Source: a virus
IMG/VR virus record: IMGVR_UViG_3300044958_000654
Span: 1-47,030 of that record
Direction: 5' to 3' (one strand)
Length of the DNA: 47,030 bases
Shown here piece by piece: positions 2 through 47,030 of the stretch. The notes beneath the pieces were generated by a model. That model did not search any database, had not been told where the DNA came from, and saw only the letters and a program-made list of their open reading frames with translations. The stretch's first letter is position 1. Each line of letters begins with the position of its first letter. The translations under genes were made by a program, and so were the position numbers.

Positions 2-2427
<2,426 letters not shown>

Positions 2428-2431
<4 letters not shown>

Positions 2432-3589: not shown

Positions 3590-3596
3590 GATGTAT

Positions 3597-18083: not shown

Positions 18084-18105
18084 AGCGAGTGCTCCTTATT
18101 AAAAA

Positions 18106-18468: not shown

Positions 18469-18478
18469 ACTATGATAG

Positions 18479-18506
18479 TATAAAATAAATTTCTAGAAAT
18501 TTCTAG
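18479..18506 (+). promoter_or_regulatory. TATAAAATA element and 10-bp tandem repeat before gp26-like gene
   Basis: TATAAAATAAAT at 18479-18490 resembles a late promoter. It runs into two perfect copies of AAATTTCTAG (18487-18496 and 18497-18506). Each copy junction contains the palindrome TTTCTAGAAA. A GGGGAG ribosome-binding site follows. The repeats may be a binding site or a structured 5' leader. Confidence 0.4.
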
Positions 18507-18521
18507 GGGAGATATAAAATT

Positions 18522-19831: not shown

Positions 19832-19841
19832 GGTTAGTTAA

Positions 19842-20573
19842 ATGTCTAAAGAAAGATTTCAAAACCCCGTTGTCGGTGATGAATTAAAATTACGAGTATT
19901 TGCATATAATTCAAATAACTATCGTAATTTTAATTCTGTCACTAAGGTGGAAATATACGCTTTTGATGACGAAAAAACAGCAGCGAATCCAGATGGCAAA
20001 AGGTTAGTTCAAACTATAGAGTCGGCAGATGTTAGCCTTGATTCTACTGGACAATATTCAACATCTGTTGAATTGGAGCAAGCAGTCTACACAATAGGAA
20101 GGTATTCAGATGTCTGGACTGTTGAGGTTGAATCTGGCGAAACTGAGGCTCAGATTGAGAACAGCTTTGAAATCTTTCCTGACCTTTGGTTCACTTCTCC
20201 TGTTCCTGTTGTGTATGGATTTGATTTTTCTTTTAGACCAAATAAAATTAGACAAGGTTCAAAAAATTATTTAATAATAGACATTACTCCAAATGTCCCT
20301 AAGACTAGCGATCTGAATAGGTATTATCAAAACTTAGCTATAGTGTCTCCTCTTAAAGTGTCTATCGAACAAGAGTGTGGAGAATGTATGCCTGCTGAAC
20401 AGGACCTCAGATTAGTAGTAGATTGCGAACTTGTAGAGCTTAGAGAGAAATGTGTTGGGTACTATTACCTTGACACGACTGAGATGGATTGTGGGATTTA
20501 TAACGTTTGGTTTCAGATGGATTTTGGTGACACTGTACATATTTCAGACAAGCAGCAGGTACAGATATACTAG
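19842..20573 (+). CDS. Probable virion protein, beta-rich, 243 aa
   Basis: No named family is recognised. The product is rich in alternating polar and hydrophobic residues: VGDELKLRVFAYNSNNYRNF, VTKVEIYAF, GRYSDVWTVEVESGETEAQI and VPVVYGFDFSFRPNKIRQGS, which suggests Ig-like beta domains. Four Cys are in ECGECMP and nearby. It starts 10 bases after the frameshift extension and ends before two strong terminators, so it is the last gene of the gp26 unit and probably a late structural protein. Confidence 0.65.
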   Translation: MSKERFQNPVVGDELKLRVFAYNSNNYRNFNSVTKVEIYAFDDEKTAANPDGKRLVQTIESADVSLDSTGQYSTSVELEQAVYTIGRYSDVWTVEVESGETEAQIENSFEIFPDLWFTSPVPVVYGFDFSFRPNKIRQGSKNYLIIDITPNVPKTSDLNRYYQNLAIVSPLKVSIEQECGECMPAEQDLRLVVDCELVELREKCVGYYYLDTTEMDCGIYNVWFQMDFGDTVHISDKQQVQIY

Positions 20574-23268: not shown

Positions 23269-23838
23269 CTATCCTTGTGGCAAAGAAAGCCGCTGTGCTT
23301 GTCTTGGATCGACAGGAGCAGGTTGCTGAGGCTGTGAGGGATCGACAGGAGCAGGTTGCTGAGGCTGTGAGGGATCGACAGGAGCAGGTTGCTGAGGCTG
23401 TGAGGGATCGACAGGAGGCTGCTCTGGCGTTTCTGGTTCAATCGGAGGCTGAAGTGCCGAATCTTGGTCTTGTGGCTTTCCGGCCTCAGGAGGGGTTCCC
23501 AAATCTTGAATCGGGCTTCCCATATCAGATAACAATTTTTCTATAATTTGGGAAGATTTTGACATAATGTCCAAGAGTTCGTCTCCTTTTTTTTCTTCCA
23601 TTGCAATTGATATTGCTACTGCGACTTTCTGAAGGGATCGTTGCACATCCTTCGATCCTTTTGAAATGTTTAAAATTGGCTTTATTTGATTGATAACTTT
23701 TTGTGCATAAGTTTCAATGTCTCTGCTCCCAAGTCCGTCTTTATCTTCTTGGGTAGCGTGCAATATGCTCAAAATACCGCCTATTTTTTCACTTAAATAT
23801 TTGCTGTCTTCGTTTAGTAAAAATTCTCTAAATTTCAT
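23269..23838 (-). CDS. Proline-repeat protein with capsid-targeting-like leader
   Basis: A 189-aa product beginning MKFREFLLNEDSKYLSEKIG. The leader fits the T4 internal-protein signal, and LNE-D fits the (L/I)-x-E cleavage site of the T4 prohead protease, so cleavage after Glu10 can be predicted. The middle (residues 25-105) is helical. The C-terminus is Pro/Gln-rich, with three exact copies of an 11-residue unit (PVDPSQPQQPA). No enzyme domain is seen. It is a candidate internal head or scaffold-like protein. Confidence 0.65.
   Translation of the reverse strand: MKFREFLLNEDSKYLSEKIGGILSILHATQEDKDGLGSRDIETYAQKVINQIKPILNISKGSKDVQRSLQKVAVAISIAMEEKKGDELLDIMSKSSQIIEKLLSDMGSPIQDLGTPPEAGKPQDQDSALQPPIEPETPEQPPVDPSQPQQPAPVDPSQPQQPAPVDPSQPQQPAPVDPRQAQRLSLPQG
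23307..23405 (-). repeat. Three 33-bp tandem repeats in coding sequence
   Basis: Units at 23307-23339, 23340-23372 and 23373-23405 are in frame and code 11 residues each. Near-identical DNA copies imply recent expansion or homogenisation. A fourth partial copy follows. Confidence 0.9.
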
Positions 23839-29542: not shown

Positions 29543-31576
29543 TTAATTACGGTCATCACAGAGCGTTGTGAATCCGTTAATTTTCTTTAAATTAATACTT
29601 TTACAACCAGATAACATGTCCAATAAATCATGGTCATGAGTTGTAACAAAGACTTGTTTATGATTCGATAGTTCGACAATCATATTGTAGACGCCTTGGA
29701 CACCAATTGGGTCGATGTTTGTGGTAACTTCATCCAAAAATACTAAAGATGGTGAAGCCCCAGAGTTAAGCATCATGACGTGTGCAAACGCTTGAGAAAC
29801 AGCTAAATTAAGCCTTCTCCTTTCGCCGCCGCTCATTGCGTAGTAAACAAAAGGATCGCCATCTTTTGGATTTCTATCAATGGTTTCTTCAAACTGATTG
29901 TTGAAAGATAAAGAAATTTTTCCATCAATTAAAAATTGTAACCAATGGGACACTCTAGAGTTAAGTGCTGGCACTATGCCGTCTACTACAATCTTCCTAA
30001 TTCCAGAATCTCCAAAAGCTTTAACCCAGAATTCATAGTAAGGCAATTCTTTCTCAGCTTTTTTCAATTCTGTTCTTTTAGATAAACATTCCTTTTCTTT
30101 GCTTAAAAACTCTTCTTTACATCTCTTGATGATTGCTTCATAGGGAGACGTTCCTTTTATTTGCTCTTCTATATTTACTATTTGTTTTTTTGATTCATCT
30201 ATTTTAGAAGTTAAAACCGCTGTTTGAACATCGCCTTCTGGCTTTTCTATCTTCTCTAAGATAGATCTTCTATTTCTAAAGTCGTCTATCTGCTTTGAAT
30301 GTAAACGATAATGGTTTTGTCCAGTATTTATGCTTTCGTTTATTTTAGATATCGAAGATTCTTGTTTTTGAAAAGCCGCATCTTCTGTGTTCTTTTGCGT
30401 TGTGAGATTGTTTATCTCTGAATTCTTCGATGATATAATCTCTTTACATGAATCTACTAAAGAAATGTAATTTTCTTCTTTGACAAATCCCAAGCATGTG
30501 GGGCATTTGGTGTCCTTCTTAGATTCATAATTTTCTATAGTTTTTTCATTTTTAGAAACTTCTCGTTGCAAAGATGCTATAGAGCTTGATAGTGAGTTTA
30601 TTTTATTAAACGAATCATTTTTTAAAACAGATTCAGAATTTAACTTTTCGGTAGCCTTGTCCAACAAAGTCTTAACCTTTGCTAGAACTGAATCTTTTTC
30701 TTTAATTGACAAATCAATGGTCTCTATTTCCTCTTGGGCACTTCTGTATTCATTAATCGCATCGCCCAAATCCGTTTCGGCTAATTTTAACTTTGTTTTT
30801 TCTATAAAAGCCTTTAATGTGACTATCTCTTGTTCTTTATCTTTTTTCCAAGATACTTCTTCTTCTTTCGCTTGCTTTAACCTATTGTCGCACGATGTTT
30901 TATCACCAAGAACTCGATCATACTCAGATGAAATTAATTTTATATTTTCTTTAAATTCATTTCTAGACTTTTTAGCGGTCTCAGAATAATGCCTATATTT
31001 GTCTAAGCTTAATAAGTTTTCTACGATTTGACGTTTAGTTGGAGTATCGCATTCTAAAAAAGATCCAGAGTTATTGTCTGTAAAGACAGCCACATTGACA
31101 AATGTTTGATAGTTTAAACCAATCTTTTCTTCTATTAACTTCTGAGTAGCGGGCATGCCTCCTAAAGAAATCTCATGTTGGTCTGCCCATCCTTCATTAT
31201 CAATTTGACTCCAATCTCCGTCTGGAGACTCCCAAATTCTCAATGAATCAGGCTTTCTAGTTCTAATAACTCTAAAGTTATCCCATCTGGCCTCTGTTCT
31301 TAATTTCTTCCCAGTCTTATTATTAATCACATTATTGTGACTTAATTTGTTGGGTTGCTTTATTGTTTTGCCATAAAGGGTATACACAATCGTTTCTGGT
31401 ATTGAGGACTTCCCAACGCCATTTGAAGACACTTTCTCTTCTTCTTCGAAAACATCCATGTTTTCTCCACGAATCAAAATGATATTTCCGTATTCTGTAA
31501 GGTCTACCTCAATACCTTCAGGCCCAAAACAAAGAAAGTTTTGTGCTGCAACAAAGTTAAATTTCAGATCTATCAT
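29543..31576 (-). CDS. Recombination endonuclease subunit, gp46-like (SbcC/Rad50)
   Basis: A 677-aa SMC-like ATPase (T4 gp46 is 560 aa). Walker A is SSNGVGKSS at residues 50-58. Long coiled coils flank a zinc hook CPTC (Cys358 and Cys361). The ABC signature is MSGGERRRLNLAVSQAFAHV, Walker B is SLVFLDEVTTNID, and the switch His is in TTHDHDLLDML. With gp47 it forms an exonuclease complex for recombination-dependent replication. Its ATG overlaps the stop of the glycosyltransferase-like gene, so the gp47, transferase and gp46 genes are one operon. Confidence 0.95.
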   Translation of the reverse strand: MIDLKFNFVAAQNFLCFGPEGIEVDLTEYGNIILIRGENMDVFEEEEKVSSNGVGKSSIPETIVYTLYGKTIKQPNKLSHNNVINNKTGKKLRTEARWDNFRVIRTRKPDSLRIWESPDGDWSQIDNEGWADQHEISLGGMPATQKLIEEKIGLNYQTFVNVAVFTDNNSGSFLECDTPTKRQIVENLLSLDKYRHYSETAKKSRNEFKENIKLISSEYDRVLGDKTSCDNRLKQAKEEEVSWKKDKEQEIVTLKAFIEKTKLKLAETDLGDAINEYRSAQEEIETIDLSIKEKDSVLAKVKTLLDKATEKLNSESVLKNDSFNKINSLSSSIASLQREVSKNEKTIENYESKKDTKCPTCLGFVKEENYISLVDSCKEIISSKNSEINNLTTQKNTEDAAFQKQESSISKINESINTGQNHYRLHSKQIDDFRNRRSILEKIEKPEGDVQTAVLTSKIDESKKQIVNIEEQIKGTSPYEAIIKRCKEEFLSKEKECLSKRTELKKAEKELPYYEFWVKAFGDSGIRKIVVDGIVPALNSRVSHWLQFLIDGKISLSFNNQFEETIDRNPKDGDPFVYYAMSGGERRRLNLAVSQAFAHVMMLNSGASPSLVFLDEVTTNIDPIGVQGVYNMIVELSNHKQVFVTTHDHDLLDMLSGCKSINLKKINGFTTLCDDRN

Positions 31577-32445
31577 GAATACATCTCCATTATTTCATCT
31601 CTATATTGGGTTCTTTCCCATTGGTGGAAAGCAAAGTAAGGCATATCCGTTTCAGAATTGTAAACTAATCCGTCTTTTTTCATTTTTGTACATTCAACCC
31701 ACCCTTGCTTAACGCCTTCTCCTGTCAAGCAAAACGGATCGTCTTGAGGATAATAAAGCTTGTAAATGGGGTCTTTCTCTAAAAAGAAATAAAGATAATT
31801 AAGAGTTGCCTGTTCACTTAATTTTGTAACAGTTCTGATAGAATTTGACCACATTAATAAACATAGATTTTTCAATTCTTCTGGACTTCCTGCGATGAAT
31901 CCAGAATTAATTATTGGCCTTTTAATAAAAGGCATTTTGAATTCATCTACATTCATTTGCAGTCGAATTTGATTCTGAGAATTCCATTCGCTTTTGTAGT
32001 GGACACTTCCCTCGCAACACAAAAGAACGTATTTCTCAAGTTCTTGGTGGCTCATTGATTGTTCTTCACCCAGATTCGTGAATGGCCTGTCACCTTCTGC
32101 ACAAAGTTGCCTCATGTAAAAGTAGTCAGAAGGATTTTTTTGGAAGAGTACGTCTTTTGAGTCTGTCATTATGATGTTGTCATAATTGTCCCCGTTCTTT
32201 ATTAGCCATTCATAAAGCAGTAAAAACCTGTCTCTTACAACCAAATGAACTCTATCTTTCTCCGTCATCACTATCTTGTAGTCCATTGACAAAAATTTGT
32301 CATGGATTTCATCATCGAGATCGTGACTAAACAGAACAACGTCGCCCTTGAAGCCAGATCTTCTAATAGAGTTTAGAAATATATTGAATTCCGGTAAGCG
32401 GCAGAAATCGTAACCACTAGCCCAAGAAATTATTGCGTCTTTCAT
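31573..32445 (-). CDS. Glycosyltransferase-like (GT-A fold) protein between gp46 and gp47
   Basis: A 290-aa product. The N-terminal strand-helix pattern (AIISWASGYDFCRLPEFNIF, GDVVLFSHDLDDEIHDKF) and NIIMTDSKDVLFQ, whose DSKD could act as a DxD-type metal site, suggest a GT-A nucleotide-sugar transferase. Later segments INSGFIAGSPEELKNLCLLM and SEQATLNYLYFFLEKDP match family 8-like transferases in pattern. The acceptor is unknown. It is inserted in the recombination operon, 9 bases after gp47 and overlapping gp46 by 4. Confidence 0.7.
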   Translation of the reverse strand: MKDAIISWASGYDFCRLPEFNIFLNSIRRSGFKGDVVLFSHDLDDEIHDKFLSMDYKIVMTEKDRVHLVVRDRFLLLYEWLIKNGDNYDNIIMTDSKDVLFQKNPSDYFYMRQLCAEGDRPFTNLGEEQSMSHQELEKYVLLCCEGSVHYKSEWNSQNQIRLQMNVDEFKMPFIKRPIINSGFIAGSPEELKNLCLLMWSNSIRTVTKLSEQATLNYLYFFLEKDPIYKLYYPQDDPFCLTGEGVKQGWVECTKMKKDGLVYNSETDMPYFAFHQWERTQYRDEIMEMYS

Positions 32446-32454
32446 TTTAAAATC

Positions 32455-33579
32455 TTACTCTGACTGTAATATATTCTTACCAATTTCTAGCAGATGTTCT
32501 TTTTCCAGTGTGTCCAAACCAGAACCCTTCTCTACTTCATCAACGTATTGATCTAACATTTCTTCTTCTTTGAACAAAATAGCCTTAGCATCCTCGACTA
32601 TGTGTTCTTCTTTTTTCTTTGATGATTGCTGAATTTCCAAACTGCCGACATCGTTGTCTTCAGTCAGCTTTTGCCTCATCTCTATAGTTTTAGAATCAGA
32701 TATATCTTCCACAAGAACTCTGATAAAATTATTATCTAAAACATATTTTTCCAAATCGGCTTCTGGAATTATAAAATGCTGAGGACTGAATGTGTTTCTG
32801 ATATATTCTTTGTCGTTGTTTTTTAAATCGAATTGGACTATGTGTTTGTGTTGAAAAGCCTCTCCAAAACTCAACTGCAAAGGGCTTCCTATGTACTCAG
32901 TATTGAAATCCAACTGTTGCTCTGCGTGGTAGTGTCCTAGAAATACCTGATTCCATCCGTCAAATATTTTAGTGTCAACTTTGATCATGTCTCCATCGTG
33001 TTCAATTGAAACTTCTGAACGAGTTCCGTGGAGTCTGTTCCAGACAGCATTATCAATTGCTATATGCCCGACTAAAACTTTGTTCTCAGACTTATTTTCT
33101 ATTTTTCCAAGATCTTCAGGCGGATTGTGCGTGTACGGAAGAAAGCTAACCTGAAATTCTTCTCCCTCAGAGTTCGAGCAAATAGTTCGAGTACAGGGTT
33201 CTGAAATAATTTCAACGCCATCTATAGCAGCAAGGGGGTACACGCTAGACACATCATGTTTTTTAAGGTGCCACAAATCATGATTGCCCAACAAAAGCCA
33301 AATTTTGGCTTCGCCGTTGCCCTTTCTCCATTCTGATATCTTTTTGTCAAATATCTCGAATGTTCGCTGATAAGTTAAGACATCTATTTTTTGCCTGTCA
33401 TGGAAAAGATCGCCGCCAAAGAGAATGTTTTCAATTCCTCGTTCGATGGCAGTATCGAAAACCCATTCCAAAACTTTTAGACAATCCTCAAGACGTTCTG
33501 TTTTTCGCTTGTGAGGATGGATATGCAAATCAGAAAACAGCAAAACTCTTCCAACTGCATTGGGGGTTTTGTCCACCAT
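32455..33579 (-). CDS. Recombination endonuclease subunit, gp47-like (SbcD/Mre11)
   Basis: A 374-aa calcineurin-type phosphoesterase. Metal ligands are seen in order: LLFSDLHIHPHK (residues 13-24), ILFGGDLFHDR, WLLLGNHDLWHL, VLVGHIAI and FLGHYHAE. It partners gp46 in processing DNA ends. The C-terminal 110 residues are charged and helical (DSKTIEMRQKLTEDN and beyond), as in the Mre11 Rad50-binding region. First gene of the operon; a TTTAAATA element lies upstream, beyond the ATG. Confidence 0.95.
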   Translation of the reverse strand: MVDKTPNAVGRVLLFSDLHIHPHKRKTERLEDCLKVLEWVFDTAIERGIENILFGGDLFHDRQKIDVLTYQRTFEIFDKKISEWRKGNGEAKIWLLLGNHDLWHLKKHDVSSVYPLAAIDGVEIISEPCTRTICSNSEGEEFQVSFLPYTHNPPEDLGKIENKSENKVLVGHIAIDNAVWNRLHGTRSEVSIEHDGDMIKVDTKIFDGWNQVFLGHYHAEQQLDFNTEYIGSPLQLSFGEAFQHKHIVQFDLKNNDKEYIRNTFSPQHFIIPEADLEKYVLDNNFIRVLVEDISDSKTIEMRQKLTEDNDVGSLEIQQSSKKKEEHIVEDAKAILFKEEEMLDQYVDEVEKGSGLDTLEKEHLLEIGKNILQSE

Positions 33580-33611
33580 ATATCACCACTAGTAAAAAAT
33601 AATATGTTTAT

Positions 33612-34040
33612 TTAAAGCTGAGGATTCTCAACTTGACCAGTGGGGGCCATTCCCGGTTCTTGCTGTTGAGGGGAACTTAACATATCTAAATTTTCTTGTC
33701 CAGATTGATCTACTTCTTTTTCTTTTTCTTTTTCTTCATCTTCTTTATCGTTAACAGGCTCTCCATTTAATATTTTATCTAAAACATCCCAAACAGAATT
33801 AGGTTTAAATTGTATTGGTGGTTGAACGCCGCCTGGTGCTCCTCCACCCATCCCTCCCATAGGGTCCATTGGGGGTGCTCCTCCACCCATCCCTCCCATA
33901 GGGTCCATTGGGGGTGCTCCACCCATAGGGTCCATCGGCATTCCACCGCCCATAGGGTCTCCCATCGGCATTCCACCGCCCATAGGGTCTCCCATCGGTG
34001 CCATATCTTCTTCTGATACAATAAAGTCTTTAAAATTCAT
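33612..34040 (-). CDS. Gly/Met/Pro-repeat protein with capsid-targeting-like leader
   Basis: A 142-aa product. The start MNFKDFIVSEEDMAPMGDPM fits the shared leader. The middle (residues 12-75) consists of imperfect MGGGMPMGDP and GGAPPMDPMG units, and the C-terminal half is acidic (EDEEKEKEKEVD). There is no enzyme domain. A CATAAATAAT element lies 5 bases before the ATG. It may be an internal head or disordered virion protein. Confidence 0.65.
   Translation of the reverse strand: MNFKDFIVSEEDMAPMGDPMGGGMPMGDPMGGGMPMDPMGGAPPMDPMGGMGGGAPPMDPMGGMGGGAPGGVQPPIQFKPNSVWDVLDKILNGEPVNDKEDEEKEKEKEVDQSGQENLDMLSSPQQQEPGMAPTGQVENPQL
33829..34011 (-). repeat. Imperfect Gly-Met-Pro coding repeats
   Basis: Two alternating unit types, about 30 to 36 bp each, encode GGMGGGAPPMDPM and GGGMPMGDPM stretches. 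Frames on the opposite strand (His/Ser-rich) are artefacts of the repeat. Confidence 0.8.
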
Positions 34041-34045
34041 GATAC

Positions 34046-34055
34046 ATTATTTATG
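34046..34055 (-). promoter_or_regulatory. Late promoter candidate CATAAATAAT
   Basis: This decamer on the minus strand lies 5 bases upstream of the ATG at 34040. The same decamer precedes the PAP2/ArdC gene. It is one base from the T4 late consensus TATAAATA. The distance is so short that a transcript would start near the ATG. Confidence 0.45.
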
Positions 34056-34099
34056 ATTAAAATCGAAATTCTACTAATTTAAAATCGAAGGATCTAAAA

Positions 34100-34762
34100 A
34101 TGAACAATAAAATAAAAGCCCTATTAAATATCAACGACCCAAGGATGAATTCTTCTCGTCTAATGAACCATTACCACCTTGTTACTCAAGTGCTGGAATA
34201 TGGCGTGGAAGGCGATGTTGCTGAATTGGGGACATGCGACGGATTATCCACAAGAGTAATAGCGGCAGTAATGGAGTGGCAAAAATCTGACAAAGATCTA
34301 TATCTACTTGATTCATTTCAAGGATTGCCTGATTTTTCCGAAAAAGACAAGCCTAGCCGAGGTGGTCCATGGAAATACGAAAATCATCCTTGGGCAAAAC
34401 CCGGCATGTTTGCAACATCACCAGACGTTCTTCTTAAAAATCTTTCGGTATTCGATCTATTAGGATGCAAAAAAGTAATTCCAGGCTGGTTTGAAAATAC
34501 AGTTCCAAAACATCTTCCCGATCAAATATGTTTTGCACATTTAGACGGAGACTTGTATGAATCTATTAAGACAAGCATTGAAGGCGTCTATCCTAGACTG
34601 ACAAAGGGTTCTGTTTGCGTGATAGATGACTATGGTTTAATAGATTTTCCTGGAGCAAAAGAAGCCGTGGATGAATTTTTAAACGACAAACCAGAAACAA
34701 TAAATGATTTAAATGTAAAAACACTTCAAGGATCAGTACATGCCTATTTCAGGAAAAAGTAA
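34100..34762 (+). CDS. TylF/MycF-family O-methyltransferase
   Basis: A 220-aa SAM-dependent methyltransferase. Motif I is GDVAELGTCDGLSTRVIAAV (residues 38-57), followed by DLYLLDSFQGLPDFS, CFAHLDGDLYESIKTSIEGV (with the metal-binding DxD) and KGSVCVIDDYGLIDFPGAKE. TylF-type enzymes methylate hydroxyls of sugars. It overlaps the next gene, a glycosyltransferase-like protein, by 23 bases, which fits modification of a glycan. An AAGGA site lies 9 bases before the ATG. Confidence 0.88.
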   Translation: MNNKIKALLNINDPRMNSSRLMNHYHLVTQVLEYGVEGDVAELGTCDGLSTRVIAAVMEWQKSDKDLYLLDSFQGLPDFSEKDKPSRGGPWKYENHPWAKPGMFATSPDVLLKNLSVFDLLGCKKVIPGWFENTVPKHLPDQICFAHLDGDLYESIKTSIEGVYPRLTKGSVCVIDDYGLIDFPGAKEAVDEFLNDKPETINDLNVKTLQGSVHAYFRKK

Positions 34763-35606
34763 AATATACAAAGTTGTTGCCGTAACACCGGCAGGACGAA
34801 AGAAAAACTTAAAACTATTAAGAAAATATGTAGAAAAGTGCGACATCATTGATGAGTGGCAAATCTGGCTTAATACCGATAACCCAGAAGATGTCGATTA
34901 TATTCATCAAATGAAAAGTGAAAATCCAAAAATAGAAATAAAAGAAGCAAATGATAAGGCTTGGGAGTTTCCTGAAGAACAGCACAAATTCTGCTCCCAC
35001 AGAGATCATGGGTACAGATGCTATAGAATACACAACTTTTTCAAATATTGCAGAGATGAAAATGCAGTCTATATTAGATTCGATGATGATATCTGCTACA
35101 TGCAAGATAACGCAATCGAAGAACTACTGAAGTTCAGAGTCGAAAACGAAGAATATCTGCTGGTCTATCCGCTGATCGTGAATAGTCCTTTTTTAAATTA
35201 CATTTTATATCAAAGAAAAGTCCTAGATTTGGAATCCCTGAAAGATTGCAAATATGAATGGAACTGTACAAACTGCTTTTATAAAGGCAGAGCTATATGC
35301 GATATACATAATCAATTCATTGAAGATGTAAAAAATAACAATTTAGAAAAATACAAAATAGGAAATGTCCTGCTTAGACAGCAGGAAAGAGTTCTCATTA
35401 ATTGCATCAGTTGGTTTGGAGGACAATTCAAAAGTGTCGCAATGAATGAAGAATTAGATCTTACGAAGGCAATCCCTAAAAGACTAGGAAAAATAAACTG
35501 CGTACACGCAGGACCCATCATGGCACACTTCTCTTCTTATTATCAAAGATTTCAGCCTACTGAAAACTTAGATGATATATGGGACAAATATGAAAAACTC
35601 ATATGA
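34740..35606 (+). CDS. Glycosyltransferase-like protein (GT-A type)
   Basis: A 288-aa product. The first strand VVAVTPAGRKKNLKLLRKYV, the acidic RFDDDICYMQDNAIEELLKF (a DDD metal site near residue 117) and the sugar-nucleotide region before it suggest a GT-A fold. The C-terminal part is Cys- and Trp-rich (CKYEWNCTNCF). It is coupled to the methyltransferase upstream. Substrate unknown. Confidence 0.65.
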   Translation: MPISGKSKIYKVVAVTPAGRKKNLKLLRKYVEKCDIIDEWQIWLNTDNPEDVDYIHQMKSENPKIEIKEANDKAWEFPEEQHKFCSHRDHGYRCYRIHNFFKYCRDENAVYIRFDDDICYMQDNAIEELLKFRVENEEYLLVYPLIVNSPFLNYILYQRKVLDLESLKDCKYEWNCTNCFYKGRAICDIHNQFIEDVKNNNLEKYKIGNVLLRQQERVLINCISWFGGQFKSVAMNEELDLTKAIPKRLGKINCVHAGPIMAHFSSYYQRFQPTENLDDIWDKYEKLI

Positions 35607-35817
35607 AAAACAACCATTCAGCAGAGAGTTCCTGCTCAAGCAAAAGAAATGCTGTCATAATGGATGCAAAAATTGCCCATACCCATTGTGCGAAAAGTGC
35701 AATGACTCTGGATGGGTTTGGTCGCATGAGTTGAACCACTATGATGGGCCAGCAAATGATCCACATGACTGCTATTCGGACGATACTCGATATCCATGCG
35801 ATGAGTGTAATAGATAA
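35590..35817 (+). CDS. Cysteine-rich protein with DUF5522-like segment
   Basis: About 75 aa from ATG 35590. An earlier ATG at 35572 also lies inside the upstream gene. CCHNGCKNCPYPLC resembles the DUF5522 signature (CCGxGCxxCP). The C-terminal CEKCNDSGW and CDECNR look like half-repeats of the DnaJ-type CxxCxGxG zinc site. A small zinc-binding adaptor is likely. A strong terminator follows within a few bases. Confidence 0.65.
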   Translation: MKNSYEKQPFSREFLLKQKKCCHNGCKNCPYPLCEKCNDSGWVWSHELNHYDGPANDPHDCYSDDTRYPCDECNR

Positions 35818-35820
35818 TAG

Positions 35821-35850
35821 AAAAAGCCCGCCGAATGGCGGGCTTTTTGC
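35821..35850. terminator. Bidirectional terminator between convergent genes
   Basis: A 12-bp perfect stem (AAAAAGCCCGCC, loop GAAT, complement) with A and T runs on its two sides. It serves the rightward Cys-rich gene and the leftward secreted protein gene. Confidence 0.95.
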
Positions 35851-35875
35851 TCTTTTACTTTAACCTAGCTTCCTG

Positions 35876-36220
35876 CTAATTAGCAGGAGGTGCAGGTGCA
35901 GGTGCTTTTTGTGTTTCTGTTTCTGTTACAGTTGCAGTTGAACAACTATTACAACAACCATACGGTGGCAAAACAGAACGAACAACATTCACTGAGCCAC
36001 GAAGAACTCTTCGAACCGGCTTGACCGTGCGAACTCGACAGGCTGTATTGCAAGCCATTGATCGAACGGGACGACAAGTTTTAACTCGGCAAACAGTGTT
36101 TTTCAACATTGTTCGAACTGGCTGACGACAGAACAATCCTGCATCTGCGTCGGCACTCATAATTGTCATGGTAGACAGAACAACTGCCGCCATTAACGAA
36201 AACTTAGCTGCGTTTTTCAT
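35876..36220 (-). CDS. Secreted Cys/Arg-rich small protein
   Basis: A 114-aa product with a clear Sec signal peptide (MKNAAKFSLMAAVVLSTMTI, cleavage likely after ADADA). The mature part is basic and Cys-rich with near-repeats CRVKTCRPVRSMACNTACR and VRRVLRGSVNVVRS, and CCNSC near the end, then a Pro/Ala tail. Proteins with a signal ending in ADAGLF or AEAGLF and a Cys/Arg-rich body are common in Planctomycetes. It may have come from the host. Strong AAGGAG site. Function unknown. Confidence 0.75.
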   Translation of the reverse strand: MKNAAKFSLMAAVVLSTMTIMSADADAGLFCRQPVRTMLKNTVCRVKTCRPVRSMACNTACRVRTVKPVRRVLRGSVNVVRSVLPPYGCCNSCSTATVTETETQKAPAPAPPAN

Positions 36221-36380
36221 AACTAACTCCTTACATTAAGTTACAGCACGTAATGACATAATAGTCAACATCGTTCCAAAGTTGTATAGATTTTTTCAGA
36301 TCTGTCAAGTGGGTTCGGTGAGACTCATTAATTTTCCCAAATTGAATTCATTATGCCATCGGAGCAGTTGTGTGATAACG

Positions 36381-36416
36381 TTGAAGCATGTTAATATTTA
36401 TGCTAACATGCTTCAA
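36381..36416. repeat. Perfect 13-bp inverted repeat
   Basis: TTGAAGCATGTTA and its exact complement are separated by 10 bases. No T run follows on either strand, so it is not an ordinary terminator. It lies in the 233-bp intergenic region before the S4-domain gene and is a candidate operator or leader hairpin. The rest of that region shows nothing I can identify. Confidence 0.75.
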
Positions 36417-36453
36417 AATAAATGGGTTTCCTCTAATTTCGGAAAGAACAGAG

Positions 36454-36684
36454 ATGAAAACTACGATAAATGAGATATTGCTTAAAAATAAGGCTTTAGT
36501 TAGTATGGCTGAGGGCCGAAGGCTTGTTTCTGATCAAGCTATAAAGCTAAATGGATTTCCGGTTCAAAATCTGAATATGGAACACGAATTCCATGTCGGA
36601 GACATTATTCAAGTCGGAAAAAAAATAAAAGTGGTTATAGAAAATGCACAAATCTGCACTGAAAAACGTTTTGATGTTCTATGA
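36454..36684 (+). CDS. Stand-alone S4-like RNA-binding domain protein
   Basis: A 76-aa product from ATG 36454 with GGAAAG upstream. Residues 6-60 (EILLKNKALVSMAEGRRLVS, DQAIKLNGFPVQNLN, FHVGDIIQVGKK) fit the S4 domain: the helix pair, the NG turn and the final GD-x-I-x-VGKK strand. S4 domains bind structured RNA in ribosomal proteins and tRNA synthetases. It overlaps the methyltransferase start by 41 bases. The lone domain could bind host rRNA or tRNA. Confidence 0.7.
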   Translation: MKTTINEILLKNKALVSMAEGRRLVSDQAIKLNGFPVQNLNMEHEFHVGDIIQVGKKIKVVIENAQICTEKRFDVL

Positions 36685-37204
36685 AAAATATTGCAAGAAT
36701 GATCCGCTGTTAGAGGGCAAATCAGTTCTGGACGTGGGTTCTCTGGATATTCAGGGGTTTAACATGCGACCTATATTCATTGATCCTAGCCGCTGGAATC
36801 CTGCTGACGGTGGCGTTCCGGTTAAGGAATATATAGGGTTAGACCAAGATTCAGGCAGAAACGTCGATGTGGTTGGGTCGGCGCATGAAATGCCATTCAG
36901 CGATGAATCTTTTGATATAATAATATCATCTTCCTGCTTTGAACATGATGATATGTTTTGGGTTACATTCTTAGAAATATGCAGAGTTTTGAAAAAAGAT
37001 GGATTAATTTATATCCAAGCTCCTTCCACTGGTCCGTATCATGGATATCCGACCGATTGTTGGAGGTTTTTAAAAGACTCTTGGAGCGGGCTTGAAAAAT
37101 GGGCAAACAAAAACGAGCATAAAATCTCTTTAGTCGAATCGTATATCGACGAAAGCGACCCACTCTGGAACGACAATAGTGCGATATACAGGAAATACAA
37201 GTGA
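36644..37204 (+). CDS. SAM-dependent methyltransferase
   Basis: A 186-aa class I methyltransferase. Motif I is SVLDVGSLDIQGFNMRPIFI, then YIGLDQDSGRNVDVVGSAHE, PFSDESFDIIISSSCFEHDD (motif IV region) and LEICRVLKKDGLIYIQAP. It resembles methyltransferase 11-type sugar or small-molecule methylases. It starts inside the S4-domain gene, so the two are coupled. Its stop overlaps the next GTG start. Confidence 0.85.
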   Translation: MHKSALKNVLMFYEKYCKNDPLLEGKSVLDVGSLDIQGFNMRPIFIDPSRWNPADGGVPVKEYIGLDQDSGRNVDVVGSAHEMPFSDESFDIIISSSCFEHDDMFWVTFLEICRVLKKDGLIYIQAPSTGPYHGYPTDCWRFLKDSWSGLEKWANKNEHKISLVESYIDESDPLWNDNSAIYRKYK

Positions 37205-41109: not shown

Positions 41110-41281
41110 TTTTTTCGAAAATATAGAAGATGCCTTTGATAAGGCCGATGAACTCCAAAGACTTTCTCCGATGAGACAAGATTATGCAAGAGTTCAGGGT
41201 CCAAAAGGTTCTACATACTACATTTCAGAATCCCGACAAGAATTAGTTCTTCACGGGATTCGGATATTTGTTGCATCTTAA
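41063..41281 (+). CDS. Small hypothetical protein, 72 aa
   Basis: The product MFQVQIQTPSEWRTISFFEN, then IEDAFDKADELQRLSPMRQD, looks globular, with an alpha-beta pattern, and ends IRIFVAS. No family recognised. No clear Shine-Dalgarno is seen. It lies between pyrE and the secreted protein. Confidence 0.55.
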   Translation: MFQVQIQTPSEWRTISFFENIEDAFDKADELQRLSPMRQDYARVQGPKGSTYYISESRQELVLHGIRIFVAS

Positions 41282-41308
41282 GGATATTTTAACTAAATTG
41301 CATAGATA

Positions 41309-41329
41309 TTATCGCCACGGAGGTGATAA
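41309..41329 (+). promoter_or_regulatory. Hairpin overlapping the ribosome-binding site
   Basis: TTATCGCC and GGTGATAA pair over 8 positions (one G-U), with loop ACGGA. The Shine-Dalgarno GGAGG for the gene at 41331 is split between loop and stem, so the hairpin can hide it. A translational switch is possible. Confidence 0.5.
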
Positions 41330-41330
41330 T

Positions 41331-41909
41331 ATGAAGAAGGCAATAACTAGGTCATTAATATTTTTATTAATGTTAACGGGGGCTTGCAGAGCAGCGGATG
41401 AAGCTCCAAATTCTAAATTAGACTTTACTCTCAATAAAGAGTTCAAGGATGTTATTGTGGACATCCTTTCTAACAAGAATGATCTTTACGCTAAAAATGG
41501 TCAAAAACTATTAAGTTCGAAAATACGTTCTTCCAGATATTCTTTAAGGATAGATAGCGAAGGCATCAACAGTGTTTTGGAGATTTTTTCTATAAAAGAG
41601 ATTGAGACAACAGTTCTCAGAGAAAAAGTAGTTTTAAAATTAGAGGAGAAGATTTCTGTTGATTTTAAGTCTATGAAAATAGAAACAAAACTCGCAGGAA
41701 GCAACAAAAAATACAGAAGATATGAGACAATCGTATTGATTTATAAGGATAAAAAAAGTACAAATGTAGATATGAAAGCCTGGGTAATGTTGAAGAGCAA
41801 CAATACTCGCAGATGGATTTTAAACGCATTTGTTAGAGTTTCTTTGAACAAGTTCGAAAAAGCATTAAGAGAAATCACAGGTTGTCCAAATGAGCAAGAT
41901 ATTCAATAG
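41331..41909 (+). CDS. Secreted protein of unknown function
   Basis: About 192 aa from ATG 41331, which has a very good GGAGGTGATAAT leader. The N-terminus MKKAITRSLIFLLMLTGACR is a signal peptide. Cleavage is likely after RAA. The TGAC triplet before the Cys is not a good lipobox. The mature part is beta-rich and basic (KIRSSRYSLRIDSEGINSVL, VVLKLEEKISVDFKSMKIET). An alternative TTG start at 41268 would bury the signal peptide. No family recognised. Confidence 0.7.
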   Translation: MKKAITRSLIFLLMLTGACRAADEAPNSKLDFTLNKEFKDVIVDILSNKNDLYAKNGQKLLSSKIRSSRYSLRIDSEGINSVLEIFSIKEIETTVLREKVVLKLEEKISVDFKSMKIETKLAGSNKKYRRYETIVLIYKDKKSTNVDMKAWVMLKSNNTRRWILNAFVRVSLNKFEKALREITGCPNEQDIQ

Positions 41910-42399
41910 TCAGAATGAATCTTCTGAGGATTTTGAATTTGAAAAAATTCAAGGCATCAATGTAGTCAAGCCATACAAGCACAAAAATGCTTGGGTGTGG
42001 GACGATGCATCTGGAAACCGGCATAACTTCGCTCCTGCTGGCTCAGTGGGGCAAGGATTATCTCCAATCGTAGTTGGTGCTGACCGGCTTGTCACCGAAG
42101 CGGCCAGTCAGAAGTCGATTAAGAGTCCAGAAGATGGGTTTCTTCTTTATTTTTCTGAAGAAGTCTTTCCAGATGCAGATGTGTGTTTGGAGTGGATTGA
42201 AGAAAAATATGGTGGCGATATTTACAATGTCATTCCTTTTCCAGATGAAGAGAACTGTGCTTTCAAGCTTTTGTCTGGCCAGCAGTCTTGGATATGTCAA
42301 GATTTGAGACTTCATTACAAGATCCCGCCCGAAAAGCTTTGGATAAAAGTTGCTCCTGCAATCGAACAATGCCCCGGAAATGCTCTTAACCAACGATGA
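41890..42399 (+). CDS. DUF6717-like protein
   Basis: A 169-aa product. NVVKPYKHKNAWVWDDASGN, then SPIVVGADRLVTEA, then GFLLYFSEEVFPDADVCLEW and SWICQDLRLHYKIPPEKLWI resemble DUF6717 proteins (PYK-x-WVFDD, EPFV-GAD, WLCPAL). Function not known. I recall such proteins mostly from Planctomycetes, which hints at the host or a gene origin. It starts inside the end of the secreted protein gene and overlaps the next start by 4 bases. Confidence 0.55.
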   Translation: MSKIFNSQNESSEDFEFEKIQGINVVKPYKHKNAWVWDDASGNRHNFAPAGSVGQGLSPIVVGADRLVTEAASQKSIKSPEDGFLLYFSEEVFPDADVCLEWIEEKYGGDIYNVIPFPDEENCAFKLLSGQQSWICQDLRLHYKIPPEKLWIKVAPAIEQCPGNALNQR

Positions 42400-42605
42400 C
42401 TACAACTATGATTCAAACCAAACACCGTTCGGACCTAGACACGGACAAAGACTTCTGTATAGAAGTCATCTATCCAGATGGCACAACTCTTCTAATCAAC
42501 GTACCAAAATCCAACCCGGAACTAATTGGAGATACTGTTGTCGTTACTCAACCTCCTACCCAACCATACGGCCTCAATATGGTCTTCGGAGGTCACTACG
42601 AATGA
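42396..42605 (+). CDS. Small hypothetical protein, 69 aa
   Basis: The product MTTTMIQTKHRSDLDTDKDF, then CIEVIYPDGTTLLINVPKSN, suggests a short beta protein. It is coupled to the DUF6717-like gene (ATGA overlap). No family recognised. Confidence 0.5.
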   Translation: MTTTMIQTKHRSDLDTDKDFCIEVIYPDGTTLLINVPKSNPELIGDTVVVTQPPTQPYGLNMVFGGHYE

Positions 42606-42640
42606 ATCAATACTGAAACTTCTTGAACAAGTTCTTCAAT

Positions 42641-44620
42641 TTAGGCAGCATCTTCTTCAGGGAGATCATCTTGAATTACCATATCCTCGACATTCTTTTT
42701 TATGCCTTGAATGATTTCCTTTGATGCTTTGCTGATATTTTCTCTTCTTCCTTTAACTGCTTTGCTGTCGCCTTTCCATAGAGCGATATATCTTGGAGAG
42801 TCTTTGGTTTCAAATCCAAAGTATTGAAGAACGATATAGGCCACAGATTCAGCATCATATTCAAAATCTCTTTTGTTTTCTTTTGCTCTTTCTTCTGGCT
42901 TCATTACTTGATGGAGTATTTCATGGGCGAGTTCATGTACGAGAGTGCTAAACTTGTTGATTCCACCATAGGTGTTGTTGATTACAATCTTTCCACCCGC
43001 AGAGTAGCCGCCCGTACCTTGAGCTAGTTCCTCATAGTCGATAGATATATCTTTTTGCTTGGCTATTTCTATTCCTGCATTGATGAGCAGGGTAAGTTCT
43101 TCAGTGTTTTCATCAGTATCTTGTCGCCAATCATTTGGCTCAAACACTTTTGCCTTGTCTTCTTGTCCTGATATGACTTGTGTTGAAGAAATATCATAAA
43201 CTTTAACGGGTCTGAAGAATACAAATTTTCTTTCTTCCTTTTGCCCCTCTAAATCTGCATCTTTTTCTTTTTTCTTTCCTGTCATAGGCGCAAGAATTAT
43301 AATTCCTTGATCCTTATTGGTAACTGCTCTTCCGAGTTTAAGCCAACGACTTTCAGAGTTTACGTAAGTTGCATCTTTCTTTTGTGCGTAAATCAACATT
43401 TGATTATTGAAAGAGTAGTTGTGGAATTTAGCAGCAAACCGCATAAAGTCTTTAACGAATCCTGATTTGATTTCTTCATCAACCAAGTTGGCCAATTTTT
43501 CAAGATAGTTTTCAATCATGGTGAGAATTTGTTTTGCTTTACCGCCCGCTTTGCCTTTAGCGTTTTCAATTTCCTGTTCCATGTTACCAAGAATCGCATC
43601 AACTTGACTCTTGGGTGCATCTTTCTCTTCTTCTGCCTCAGTCGAATCAGCGTTAAATTGCGGTCCAGCATCTATGATTTCTTTCAAATCAGTTATTCCA
43701 GTTAGCTCTATGAGTTTTTGAATCACATCATTATTCAGACTCCACCTGCCCGTGCTCCAATAGCCACCTTGGTTCCAAGTAAATTTTGTTATTTCTTTTA
43801 GTTTGTCTTTAATTGGCGTCGTATTTCCATAAATAACAAGAATGTCTTTACTTCTGTCGTCTTTATATTTTTCACTTGCCACTCGCATGAATGCGTGGAT
43901 ACCTTGGTCTTCGAGCTTCAGCATCCACTCAGTGAACGAATATTTTGCAGGCTTAACAGCAGGTTTCCAAGACTTCATGATGTCCTTAGCTAGTTTCCTT
44001 GCAGAATCATGATCGCTTCGATAATGAGTCCCTCCATATAATCGGCTAATTCCGATCCTGTCTGCAATGTCCATGAATCCTTTTTCATGTTTCGGATATA
44101 GCGAAGAAAGATATAGAGCAATTAAAGAAGAAATCAAAGAGTGATTTGAAGGATAAGCTGGCGTATCGTCTGTTTTCAAATCATGATACATTATGTTTAG
44201 ACCCATCTTGGGTGCGATCTGATGCGGTCTTGGTCTGTTGAACTTCTTTTTAAGCTTTAGTCCAAGTATTTCGCCTTGCTTAAGTATTTTGTTAAGCATT
44301 TTGAAATCGAAATCTAGAGAATTTTGTTTAAGATAATCTTCAAATGGCTTGACTTGAGCCACATCAAAATCCTTCATATCTTTCATGATATCTTTGGACT
44401 TAAAATGACTCATCTTTTCTAGCTCTTTAAGTTCCTCGATAGTTTCTTTCGAGGTGTTGGAAGGTGGTGGGTCTACCTTAAATCTTCCTTTAAAGAGAGG
44501 ATGCTCTTTTTTAGACAGAGCATCTGTCTTTTCATCCATATCGCCATAAACAATTTCGTCAATTGACTTGTTGACCGATTTATTTAACTGTTCTTTATTT
44601 TCTATCCAATTTCTAAACAT
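42641..44620 (-). CDS. PAP2 phosphatase / ArdC-like fusion with capsid-targeting-like leader
   Basis: A 659-aa product. Residues 1-10 (MFRNWIENKE) fit the shared leader. Residues 115-215 are a PAP2/haloperoxidase-type phosphatase with all three motifs: K-x6-RP (122-130), PSNH (157-160) and SR-x5-H-x3-D (192-203). Residues 365-450 match the ArdC N-terminal ssDNA-binding domain (NYSFNNQMLIYAQKKDATYV, WLKLGRAVTNKDQGIIILAP). A zinc protease HELAH (562-566) follows, with a distal Glu at 591. ArdC proteins protect incoming plasmid DNA from restriction. A CATAAATAAT element precedes the ATG. Function in phage is inferred. Confidence 0.85.
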   Translation of the reverse strand: MFRNWIENKEQLNKSVNKSIDEIVYGDMDEKTDALSKKEHPLFKGRFKVDPPPSNTSKETIEELKELEKMSHFKSKDIMKDMKDFDVAQVKPFEDYLKQNSLDFDFKMLNKILKQGEILGLKLKKKFNRPRPHQIAPKMGLNIMYHDLKTDDTPAYPSNHSLISSLIALYLSSLYPKHEKGFMDIADRIGISRLYGGTHYRSDHDSARKLAKDIMKSWKPAVKPAKYSFTEWMLKLEDQGIHAFMRVASEKYKDDRSKDILVIYGNTTPIKDKLKEITKFTWNQGGYWSTGRWSLNNDVIQKLIELTGITDLKEIIDAGPQFNADSTEAEEEKDAPKSQVDAILGNMEQEIENAKGKAGGKAKQILTMIENYLEKLANLVDEEIKSGFVKDFMRFAAKFHNYSFNNQMLIYAQKKDATYVNSESRWLKLGRAVTNKDQGIIILAPMTGKKKEKDADLEGQKEERKFVFFRPVKVYDISSTQVISGQEDKAKVFEPNDWRQDTDENTEELTLLINAGIEIAKQKDISIDYEELAQGTGGYSAGGKIVINNTYGGINKFSTLVHELAHEILHQVMKPEERAKENKRDFEYDAESVAYIVLQYFGFETKDSPRYIALWKGDSKAVKGRRENISKASKEIIQGIKKNVEDMVIQDDLPEEDAA

Positions 44621-44636: not shown

Positions 44637-46091
44637 TTAAAAGTCTAATTCTTCACGAATATCTACTTTATGTCCTTCATTCTTTATAATTTTAATTCTT
44701 TTCTTTGAATGATCTAGCAAATATTCATTTATATCGAAAACAAAATCATAGTATTCAAGTCCGTCTTTATCAGATGCAAGTCTCAATCCTCGCCCAAATC
44801 GCTGTATAATCTGGTGATCTGCTTGTCCTCCAGCCGCATTGATAAGATTGTGGACAAACACGTTGATCCCAGCATTGAAAATACCTTGGGTGGCGATTGC
44901 TATTTTATTGCCTTTAGAGTACTGTAGCTGGTCGATGACATCTTTTCTTGCATCTAGGTTATCTTCTCCACGAACCCATAAAGCATCAGGAATCAGACTT
45001 TGCAAGGCTTCTCCGTGTGCAAGTCTTTCGACCAAGATAAGGGTTCTGCCCTTCAAAGATCTAGCCAATCGGCTCACAATGTCGTGAAAATGCCAACTCT
45101 CAGCTATACCATTGGTTACTGCATCAAGATAAATATCATACGGAATCTGAGGTTCTTTCACTGGATAGAACGTACAGTTACAAGAAGATAAGATTCCTCT
45201 ATCTTGAAGAGTCTTTGTTGTAAGGATTCCCTTGTCGTTATCTGCTGACTTTGTTTTAAGCACAGGTCCAAAGTGGCCTTTTACAGAGAACTTTTGTGTT
45301 TTATCTTTTCCGCCAAATTTAAAAGGCGTAGCACTGACGGCTACTCTAACCGAGCAGTTTTTCATTTTTGTGTAAAACTTCTTTGGCGTCTTACTCATCA
45401 TGTCATGAATTTCATCCACTACCATGACTTTAACTTTAGGAATTAACTTTTCTATTTTATGCAAAGATTGTACAGTCGCACATGTGAAGATGTTTGGATC
45501 TTTGTACTTGTCATAAAGTCGTCCGACATTTTCAAATCCCCAGCTTGTCAAGGCATCATAGTTTTGATCACAAAGGCTTTTCTTATTTGCAAGAATAAGA
45601 GTTGGCACGTTTTCAGGAATTGTTTTTAAAATTGCAACCATGATTGCAGTTTTACCTGCTGAGGTTGGGGCAAAAACAACACCTCTCTTGTGTTTGATGA
45701 CTTGATTGGTGAGATCAATTTGATAGTCACGCATTCCTTGCCATCGATCTTGATCTTTCTGAGGAAGGTGATGAATCCATTGATCCAAGAAGTCCGAGCC
45801 AATTTCGTCATACAAAAATTCAGGCTCACCTCTCTCATCGATAATGGTATGAGGTATTTTCCAATGATCTAAAGCAGCAGTAACCTCTGGCAGTAGGCCA
45901 GATAAAAATCTTCCACTTTCTTTTTTGAAAAACTCTGTATATCCATCCCACAGCCTTTGTTTATAAAGACGACTGTGAAAATACCCTTTTTCTCTATGTC
46001 TAAGGGCTTTCCAAAGATTTATTCGGGTATCATCACAATTGGTGTTTAACCAAGAATAGCAGTTTTGAACCTTTATTACAGCTTTCTTCAT
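44637..46091 (-). CDS. uvsW: UvsW-like DNA/RNA helicase
   Basis: A 484-aa superfamily 2 helicase (T4 UvsW is 503 aa). The N-terminus (YFHSRLYKQRLWDGYTEFFK) matches the UvsW substrate-binding domain. Helicase motifs: MRDYQIDLTNQVIKHKRGVV, motif I APTSAGKTAIM, Ia LILANKKSL, motif II VVDEIHD, motif III VAVSATPFKFGG, and motif VI IIQRFGRGLRLASD. UvsW unwinds branched DNA and R-loops, aiding the switch to recombination-dependent replication. It is transcribed with the genes around it; the stop is 16 bases from the next start. Confidence 0.93.
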   Translation of the reverse strand: MKKAVIKVQNCYSWLNTNCDDTRINLWKALRHREKGYFHSRLYKQRLWDGYTEFFKKESGRFLSGLLPEVTAALDHWKIPHTIIDERGEPEFLYDEIGSDFLDQWIHHLPQKDQDRWQGMRDYQIDLTNQVIKHKRGVVFAPTSAGKTAIMVAILKTIPENVPTLILANKKSLCDQNYDALTSWGFENVGRLYDKYKDPNIFTCATVQSLHKIEKLIPKVKVMVVDEIHDMMSKTPKKFYTKMKNCSVRVAVSATPFKFGGKDKTQKFSVKGHFGPVLKTKSADNDKGILTTKTLQDRGILSSCNCTFYPVKEPQIPYDIYLDAVTNGIAESWHFHDIVSRLARSLKGRTLILVERLAHGEALQSLIPDALWVRGEDNLDARKDVIDQLQYSKGNKIAIATQGIFNAGINVFVHNLINAAGGQADHQIIQRFGRGLRLASDKDGLEYYDFVFDINEYLLDHSKKRIKIIKNEGHKVDIREELDF

Positions 46092-46480: not shown

Positions 46481-47030
46481 TTAATTATTCTCTATTTGTT
46501 TAATTGTTTCCTTGAATTTTTTTACATATTCTTCCTTAAGTGGATGATACATCTTTAATGGAGTGTGCATGTCTTTATATTTGTTTGGTTCATTGTTTTG
46601 AGTCTCAGTTAATTCAACTATTTTGTCCACAATAGAACTACAATCAGTCATTAGGTCCTCATAATCGAACTCTAGGTGTTTTTTATCTTTTAAGAATTCG
46701 ACCCATCCTTTTGACTCATGTATCATATCAAAGTACAAGCGAAGCATTGTATCTCTATTGTAAGGGACATCCACGTTTGCGTGTTCTGAGAGGTCTTTCT
46801 CACACGTAGTGTTCCACATTTTAGTATGTCCTGCGAAATACTGTGAAACTGTTGCTTCTGCCAAGTCTTTTCTAGTTAAATGTATAAAAAATACATTTTT
46901 TGGAAACGACGGCAGATGTTCATTATATTGAAATTTATGTATCTTGCAAAACGGAACTGGGTTCTTTACAAGAAATTCATCAAAGAGTGTCTCGCTATTA
47001 TACCACTCTGCAAACGGTGGGTTAAAAAGT
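46481..47030 (-). CDS. Stf0-like sulfotransferase, 5' truncated
   Basis: The frame is open to the right edge, so the N-terminus lies outside the window. A TTG at 46864 is not the start. Visible residues include FFNPPFAEWYNSETLFDEFL and NVFFIHLTRKDLAEATVSQY, the PAPS 3'-phosphate region with the R and S of the family, then FAGHTKMWN and HLEFDYEDLMTD, where sulfotransferases have the Y-EDL motif, and a helical end. It is the second sulfotransferase of the window, and differs from the one at 12.8 kb. Substrate unknown. Confidence 0.8.
   Translation of the reverse strand, partial: LFNPPFAEWYNSETLFDEFLVKNPVPFCKIHKFQYNEHLPSFPKNVFFIHLTRKDLAEATVSQYFAGHTKMWNTTCEKDLSEHANVDVPYNRDTMLRLYFDMIHESKGWVEFLKDKKHLEFDYEDLMTDCSSIVDKIVELTETQNNEPNKYKDMHTPLKMYHPLKEEYVKKFKETIKQIENN

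Follow-up and report, generated by a model that had tools for sequence, protein, structure and literature searches.

Polyvalent proteins are multidomain proteins that unite several unrelated activities in one chain, often pair an ArdC-N domain with a zincin, and are proposed to be injected into the cell together with the DNA (Iyer et al. 2017, PMC5512222). That paper calls ArdC-N rare in phage-type members, and its main text contains 0 occurrences of both "PAP2" and "phosphatase". A survey of jumbo phages, which mentions ArdC-like zincins for those of group 3, likewise contains 0 occurrences of "PAP2" or "capsid targeting" (PMC7824862). Delivery of ArdC as a protein is disputed between two sources. 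The ArdC of pSa is cited as a transferred protein (PMC5512222), whereas R388 ArdC is described as active when expressed in the recipient, where its expression is required; donor expression is no help, and the protease is dispensable (PMC7213743). A third point of reference is phage T4, whose internal proteins IPI-IPIII, among them the antirestriction protein IPI, carry a short leader at the N-terminus, in which two aromatic residues are spaced apart. Residues 4 and 7 of this leader are the main determinants of targeting and residues 8 and 10 those of processing, and the protease gp21 cleaves after L/I-x-E (PMC9026906).

Features of all these systems meet in one open reading frame (ORF) of the window, the 47,030-base stretch of viral DNA analysed here. 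Judged by its sequence, a large tailed phage encodes a phosphatase and a plasmid-type anti-restriction protein in one chain, behind a head-packaging-like tag. The ORF (P0001, 659 aa, 42641-44620, minus strand) is uninterrupted, with zero internal stops, and comprises a leader, a PAP2 phosphatase, a GNTxxIKD segment, ArdC-N and a zincin. With at least two disparate domains on one chain encoded by an invasive element, it has the makeup of a polyvalent protein; its ArdC is C-terminal and lies behind a T4-like leader, which sets it apart from the described members.

The window is contained in a 245,522-base parent contig at 99.9% identity, with 0 mismatches and 3 gaps. The ORF recurs at 100% in two more records of the same virus and is intact in four IMG/VR records, all of one virus. 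Because the parent contig and the two other records agree at these levels, we rejected an assembly chimaera as unlikely. Elsewhere the parent contig encodes UvsX-like, single-stranded-DNA-binding, tail sheath, sheath stabiliser and baseplate hub families, which indicates that the phage is contractile-tailed and has T4-type genes. The 24 parent-contig ORFs scanned against PHROGs included no portal, major capsid protein or terminase. A weak PHROGs match of the 659-aa protein to a "head maturation protease" (phrog_36941, residues 323-394, E 0.0048) was set aside as evidence, and PADLOC left the protein unmatched.

The second half of the protein is an ordinary ArdC. ArdC-N occupies residues 364-475 (43196-43531, minus strand; Pfam ArdcN, E 1.3e-8, above the curated cut-off), followed by the zincin metallopeptidase half at about residues 510-640 (42701-43093, minus strand), with HELAH at 562-566 and DAES at 589-592. 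ArdC-N and then a zincin with HExxH and a glutamate helix is the architecture of R388 ArdC (6i89, 6sna; PMC7213743), with which our protein shares both domains, both motifs and the fold: the predicted structure of this half has 6i89 as its best match (E 1.3e-8), and R388 ArdC is also matched by sequence profile (E 4.3e-11). The R388 protein differs in consisting of these two domains only, without PAP2. PHROGs profiles for anti-restriction (residues 393-636, E 3.8e-11) and metallo-protease (residues 511-595, E 1.4e-5) agree; the M78/IrrE model reached only E 0.17. Against viral models the second half had no match at E 0.001 or better.

Since ArdC-N and HExxH together make up a single known protein, the actual fusion point is the one between PAP2 and ArdC. 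The original prediction, a PAP2 phosphatase fused to ArdC and to a metalloprotease, therefore holds for the PAP2-ArdC fusion, its other two parts being one ordinary ArdC. Scanning a genome collection with the ArdC half gave 529 pattern matches, 0 of them confirmed. The two nearest relatives of this half, ORFs of 437 and 454 aa on other phage contigs, both lack PAP2 and are 42% and 37% identical over most of the half by tblastn, or 41% and 39% in a three-way alignment (the 454-aa ORF aligned from its second ATG). Both begin MNW(Y/F), continue into a GNTxxIKD-type segment and end in ArdC. On the contig of the first, G004, which has its own portal and terminase families, two ORFs adjoining the ArdC gene begin MNWY(K/R)QIKLA, and a third contains MNWYRQ internally, possibly at its real start.

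The first half is predicted to belong to the PAP2 superfamily and, within it, to be of the class A acid phosphatase type. Sequence and fold matches place the domain at residues 46-221 (43958-44485, minus strand), and Pfam PAP2 (PF01569) matches residues 118-203 (E 2.6e-9), also above its curated cut-off. As had been read from the letters alone, the catalytic triad is complete, spanning residues 122-203 (44012-44257, minus strand): K122-x6-R129-P, P157-S-N-H and S192-R-x5-H199-x3-D203. Of 337 predicted ORFs in the parent contig, this is the one ORF with the full spaced triad. By sequence and by fold, the closest neighbours are soluble class A acid phosphatases, with 7f17/7f18 and PhoN as the top Foldseek matches; the membrane PAP2 5jki is also among the matches but ranks lower (E 4.2e-4). 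Our protein shares its triad and soluble fold with the class A nonspecific acid phosphatases (7f17/7f18, PhoN, PhoC), and differs from them in having PSNH, in bearing a capsid-type leader and in being part of a phage fusion. A lipid phosphatase is accordingly disfavoured, and the suggestion of a role at the host envelope finds evidence against it in these soluble neighbours, on both sequence and model.

Standalone relatives bear on whether the phosphatase is active. A scan with a two-row alignment found L122 (contig G011), L123 (G012; L124 in G013 gives the same match) and L125 (G014). Every motif of the triad is present in L122 and L123; L125 has a broken triad, having lost PSGH and kept the other motifs. 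This loss, together with PSNH in our protein in place of the PSGH of the two intact relatives, would suit a catalytically idle PAP2, retained in a head core protein for structure or for DNA binding. We consider that very improbable, given a complete spaced triad in three of the four proteins tested (ours and the G011 and G012 relatives) and acid phosphatases as the best matches of the predicted model.

Between the two halves lies a small GNTTPIKD-type domain at about residues 258-308 (43697-43849, minus strand), common to L038 and L243, in which no Pfam family exceeds its cut-off. Just before it, residues 227-240 (YSFTEWMLKLEDQG; 43901-43942, minus strand) align with the N-terminal leaders of the two PAP2-free ArdC relatives and fit the leader pattern, which suggests a second, internalised leader at the PAP2/ArdC joint. 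About 2.5% of such stretches would match the pattern by chance, and the profile score of this one is unremarkable (rank 57 of 65,653 internal positions). We considered whether internal leaders mark domain joints in general and rejected this on the rates of internal patterns, 26 in 20,588 positions of PAP2 proteins, below the 157 in 75,559 of the parent contig. This joint and a site near residue 424 of L197 are left as candidate internal leaders.

The protein begins with a putative capsid-targeting leader, MFRNWIENKE (residues 1-10; 44591-44620, minus strand). We defined a strict pattern, aromatic-x-x-aromatic-aliphatic starting at residue 2-8, which was written after the N-termini had been seen and equals the published T4 targeting positions; F2-x-x-W5-I6 fits it. 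As a control we drew random internal stretches 200 times. Of the 354 ORFs of the parent contig, 28 carry the pattern at the N-terminus, compared with a control mean of 6.5 and maximum of 13, although some of these are evidently hydrophobic starts or chance fits. Three further leader-bearing ORFs of the window are a DUF6036 nucleotidyltransferase-like gene near the tail sheath stabiliser gene (MSFRNFIESQ; 6833-7465, plus strand) and ORFs of 189 aa (MKFREFLLNED; 23269-23838, minus strand) and 142 aa (MNFKDFIVSEE; 33612-34040, minus strand).

Enrichment recurs in G011 (13/208 ORFs; control mean 3.2, maximum 8), G012 (14/95; 2.2 and 7) and G014 (24/202; 3.5 and 10). G004 has 0 of 64 (mean 2.0, maximum 6), and T4 as a whole is unenriched (8/269; mean 5.6, maximum 13). 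The eight T4 ORFs include ipII, ipIII and the hypothetical gp61.1 (MKTFKEFIKED). Because ipI (MKTFKEFTST) has both aromatics with T at the next place, we adopted a loose form as well, the only one of the two that ipI fits; MRFKDFTDIEN, found in many PAP2 relatives, has the same form as ipI.

To score the leader independently, we built a profile from 26 of 27 hits with the 659-aa protein held out. Its leader ranked 9 of 73,741 positions; the eight above it are N-termini used in building the profile, so that it stands first among the rest. The likeness to T4 internal head proteins that had been noticed in the raw sequence is thus upheld by a statistical test, and the leader of this protein, as a sequence, exceeds chance. 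The site of processing appears to differ from that of T4. The gp21 motif is absent from W-I-E-N, where the glutamate stands at +2 after the second aromatic, as it does in 15 of the 28 parent-contig leaders (ours included). The +3 position of the gp21 motif is occupied in 4 of 8 T4 leaders, 9 of 13 in G011, 13 of 14 in G012 and 17 of 24 in G014. Because the leader glutamate is at +2 and not +3, we infer a protease of other specificity in the parent contig. Compared with IPI-IPIII, our protein has other cargo, a length of 659 aa and a glutamate one position earlier, and its packaging is predicted from the leader. The structural model, for which the alignment had only 4 rows, gives residues 1-45 a pLDDT under 50, as expected for a detachable leader and linker.

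These statistics weigh on a simpler account, in which the protein is intracellular and unpackaged, ArdC-N and PAP2 act on replicating DNA or nucleotide pools, and the fit of the leader is coincidental. About 6-7 pattern-bearing ORFs are expected by chance in the parent contig, and R388 ArdC functions when expressed in the recipient (PMC7213743). The gene also lies 16 bases directly downstream of that for a UvsW-like helicase on the same strand (44637-46091, minus strand). No clear ribosome-binding site was seen before its ATG; a Shine-Dalgarno-like 4-mer precedes 98 of the 205 parent-contig ORFs of at least 150 aa. The late-promoter motif was not informative (4/27 tagged and 16/246 other ORFs). 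We judge this account rather unlikely, since the held-out leader beats every position outside the training set of the profile, and PAP2 relatives in other phages, two of them inside runs of leader genes, are tagged far above control.

The PAP2 relatives themselves form the more interesting result, which extends beyond the window: many phages share a family of PAP2 proteins with leaders. Standalone relatives of 230 and 221 aa bear the leader and are surrounded by other leader genes; in G012 and G014 the PAP2 gene is leader-bearing and belongs to a run of genes starting MKxIKLFEDFINE or alike. The G011 PAP2 ORF is without a leader, and two genes close downstream of it carry one. A second scan, with a four-row alignment, gave at least 484 confirmed PAP2 relatives, of which 80 were kept; three were the same virus as ours, leaving 77 others. 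After exclusion of one 5'-open record, these fell into 31 non-redundant groups, with internal stretches (300 draws) as control. The strict leader occurs in 10 of the 31 groups (control mean 0.42, maximum 3) and the loose leader in 18 (mean 2.19, maximum 7), with 21 and 13 groups, respectively, lacking it.

The partners of PAP2 in these phages differ from ours. Among the 77 kept of at least 484 relatives (L162-L238), the GRFNPPTxGH cytidylyltransferase motif is present in 56, a nucleotidyltransferase motif in 57 and both in 53, which thus carry these two enzymes rather than ArdC in the rest of the chain; ArdC, by motif, is in 0 of the 77. Because many of these ORFs run off the fetched stretch, their lengths are minima. 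Their PAP2 domains are about 30-42% identical to ours, and in seven of the 77 checked against Pfam PAP2 was found each time, in L214 below the cut-off. Because PAP2 is joined to nucleotidyltransferase and cytidylyltransferase in other phages, a nucleotide is, by analogy, a more likely substrate than a lipid. GenBank phages gave 0 matches to our PAP2 half (residues 1-220), and the PAP2 domain of L162 matched 2 of 50,697 records, neither of which reached 30% identity. Among the relatives examined, a single virus carried the PAP2-ArdC fusion.

Several observations connect such leaders to the phage head. G011 encodes a gp21-family protease (E 2.0e-13; T4 as positive control, E 4.1e-113), and it also has a 404-aa ORF, leader-like from its second ATG (MKSAIKLYESFLKEGAE), after an ORF that is, from its position, the presumed major capsid gene. 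A search of the 245-kb parent contig for gp21 relatives gave none; among the four PAP2-bearing records G011 alone was positive (G012, G013 and G014 negative), and six further records with PAP2 or ArdC relatives, all fragments, gave 0 while cyanophage S-SM1 was positive. In S-SM1 the cytidylyltransferase T4-GC190 was detected in purified virions, although not previously in those of S-PM2 (PMC3037559). Its N-terminus is MKKFSAFLNEA, and its cytidylyltransferase domain is the one joined to PAP2 in leader-bearing proteins such as L162. Among 57 hand-picked CDS of about 125 in two stretches of S-SM1, three fit the pattern, GC190 alone with the +3 glutamate. Virion proteomics was found for neither our virus nor any PAP2 relative, and the virion link of the leader-PAP2 set is, by analogy through this homologous-domain protein, one step away.

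The same observations speak to a different role for the leader, as a tag that recruits proteins to something other than the capsid core (for instance the host membrane, the replication site or tail assembly), with the tagged set as a phage-internal localisation class. The chemical diversity of the tagged proteins (NUDIX, HldE-like, NTase) and the tagged ORF at 6833-7465 near tail genes would suit such a tag. T4 ipII and ipIII, however, bear the same pattern, GC190 is a tagged protein reported from virions (PMC3037559), and the leader-like ORF of G011 follows the presumed major capsid gene. A non-capsid tag is on this evidence quite improbable.

We lean somewhat towards a leader-directed polyvalent protein that is packaged in the head and injected. 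In this mechanism the N-terminal leader would dock the 659-aa protein into the prohead core, like the capsid-targeting sequence of T4, and the prohead protease would probably cut the leader off after E7, judging from the glutamate position in the tagged set. The processed protein would remain in the head with the DNA and enter the cell upon infection, where ArdC-N may bind exposed single-stranded or incoming DNA and so hinder restriction enzymes. The zincin half may cleave a host regulator or release domains, and perhaps is dispensable; it may be accessory because the protease of R388 ArdC is dispensable (PMC7213743). The PAP2 half, we would guess, is a soluble phosphatase whose substrate would be a small phosphorylated metabolite and probably a nucleotide or a signal derived from one.

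A wider reading, which we put forward only tentatively, is that in T4-superfamily phages, many of them probably marine, leaders serve as address tags that load enzymes into the head, with PAP2 as a hub cargo that is here joined to ArdC. Under that reading one to two dozen genes per genome would carry leaders, with details differing between phages. PAP2 with nucleotidyltransferase and NMNAT/cytidylyltransferase might form a pre-packaged nucleotide or NAD counter-defence, and the PAP2-ArdC chain might both shield the DNA and strip phosphate from a host defence signal.

New here are the recurrence of PAP2 among the domains of leader-bearing phage proteins and the union of PAP2 with ArdC. The general kind, injected polyvalent proteins, was already described in 2017 (PMC5512222). 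The original prediction had seen in a packaged ArdC a new delivery route and in the protein an undescribed architecture. Packaging remains the best reading, for a class proposed in that earlier work and with delivery as protein disputed. As for the architecture, the open-licence literature that we searched holds no report of a PAP2-ArdC phage fusion or of a phage PAP2 virion protein, while multidomain proteins with ArdC-N and a zincin are a known class (PMC5512222). If the packaging mechanism is true, the leader reveals from raw sequence which unknown phage genes enter the host with the DNA, and for T4-like phages of uncultured hosts a leader-based reading would fill a gap. ArdC would then extend from conjugation to phage delivery, and PAP2, which stands behind such leaders in many phages, would become an injected effector domain open to testing.

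Relatives of the PAP2 domain form a large phage protein family in viral contigs (77 loci, L162-L238), many of whose members are fused to nucleotide enzymes. The order in many of these proteins is leader, PAP2, a Pol-beta-type nucleotidyltransferase and a GRFNPPTxGH cytidylyltransferase, and the motifs of the latter two enzymes occur together in 53 of the 77 loci. One member, L162, gives a weak match to PADLOC PDC-S09 at 252-299 (E 1.1e-4). Another, a 945-aa protein (L197:548-3382), runs from cytidylyltransferase through DUF5824 to PAP2, and a leader-like LSFKDFVNQ lies between its domains at about residue 424.

The virus itself carries sulfotransferase-like ORFs at window 46481-47029, where a Stf0 domain was matched (E 6.8e-7), and on the 245,522-base parent contig G002 at 17054, 31465, 53710, 127291, 202932 and 243283; the domain test covered the window copy alone, and those on G002 were assigned by eye. 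Three adjoining genes (G002 117459-122479) match phrog_35217, phrog_19072 and phrog_22605, the second with a further, weaker match to a sporulation-protein family. The trio resembles SpoVR/YeaH/PrkA. Short direct repeats lie within two leader-bearing ORFs, one set with a 33-base period (window 23306-23417) and the other of MGDPMGGGMP type when translated (window 33835-33998). Between the window and its copy in G002 there are three gaps.

Leaders also recur across neighboring genes in other phages. A common MKxIxxFxxFLNE-type leader marks gene runs in two contigs with standalone leader-bearing PAP2 relatives, G014 (107-3789 and 83596-90852) and G012 (17451-20332, 31078-37101 and 55438-57031), and known Pfam domains were scarce in a sample of these genes. 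Unlike these, the leader in G004 (41116-44010) reads MNWY(K/R)xIK(I/L)A; it is found on a PAP2-free ArdC relative and at least two adjoining genes. Portal and terminase families of its own are also present in this contig.

Capsid-targeting-like N-termini extend to T4 and to cyanophages. T4 gene 61.1, encoding hypothetical gp61.1, begins with MKTFKEFIKED (L251:267-431). The cyanophage cytidylyltransferase T4-GC190 begins with MKSFFQFLSEA in S-SM2 (L245:2234-3460) and MKKFSAFLNEA in S-SM1 (L247:8257-9420), and for S-SM1 its presence in virions has been reported (PMC3037559).
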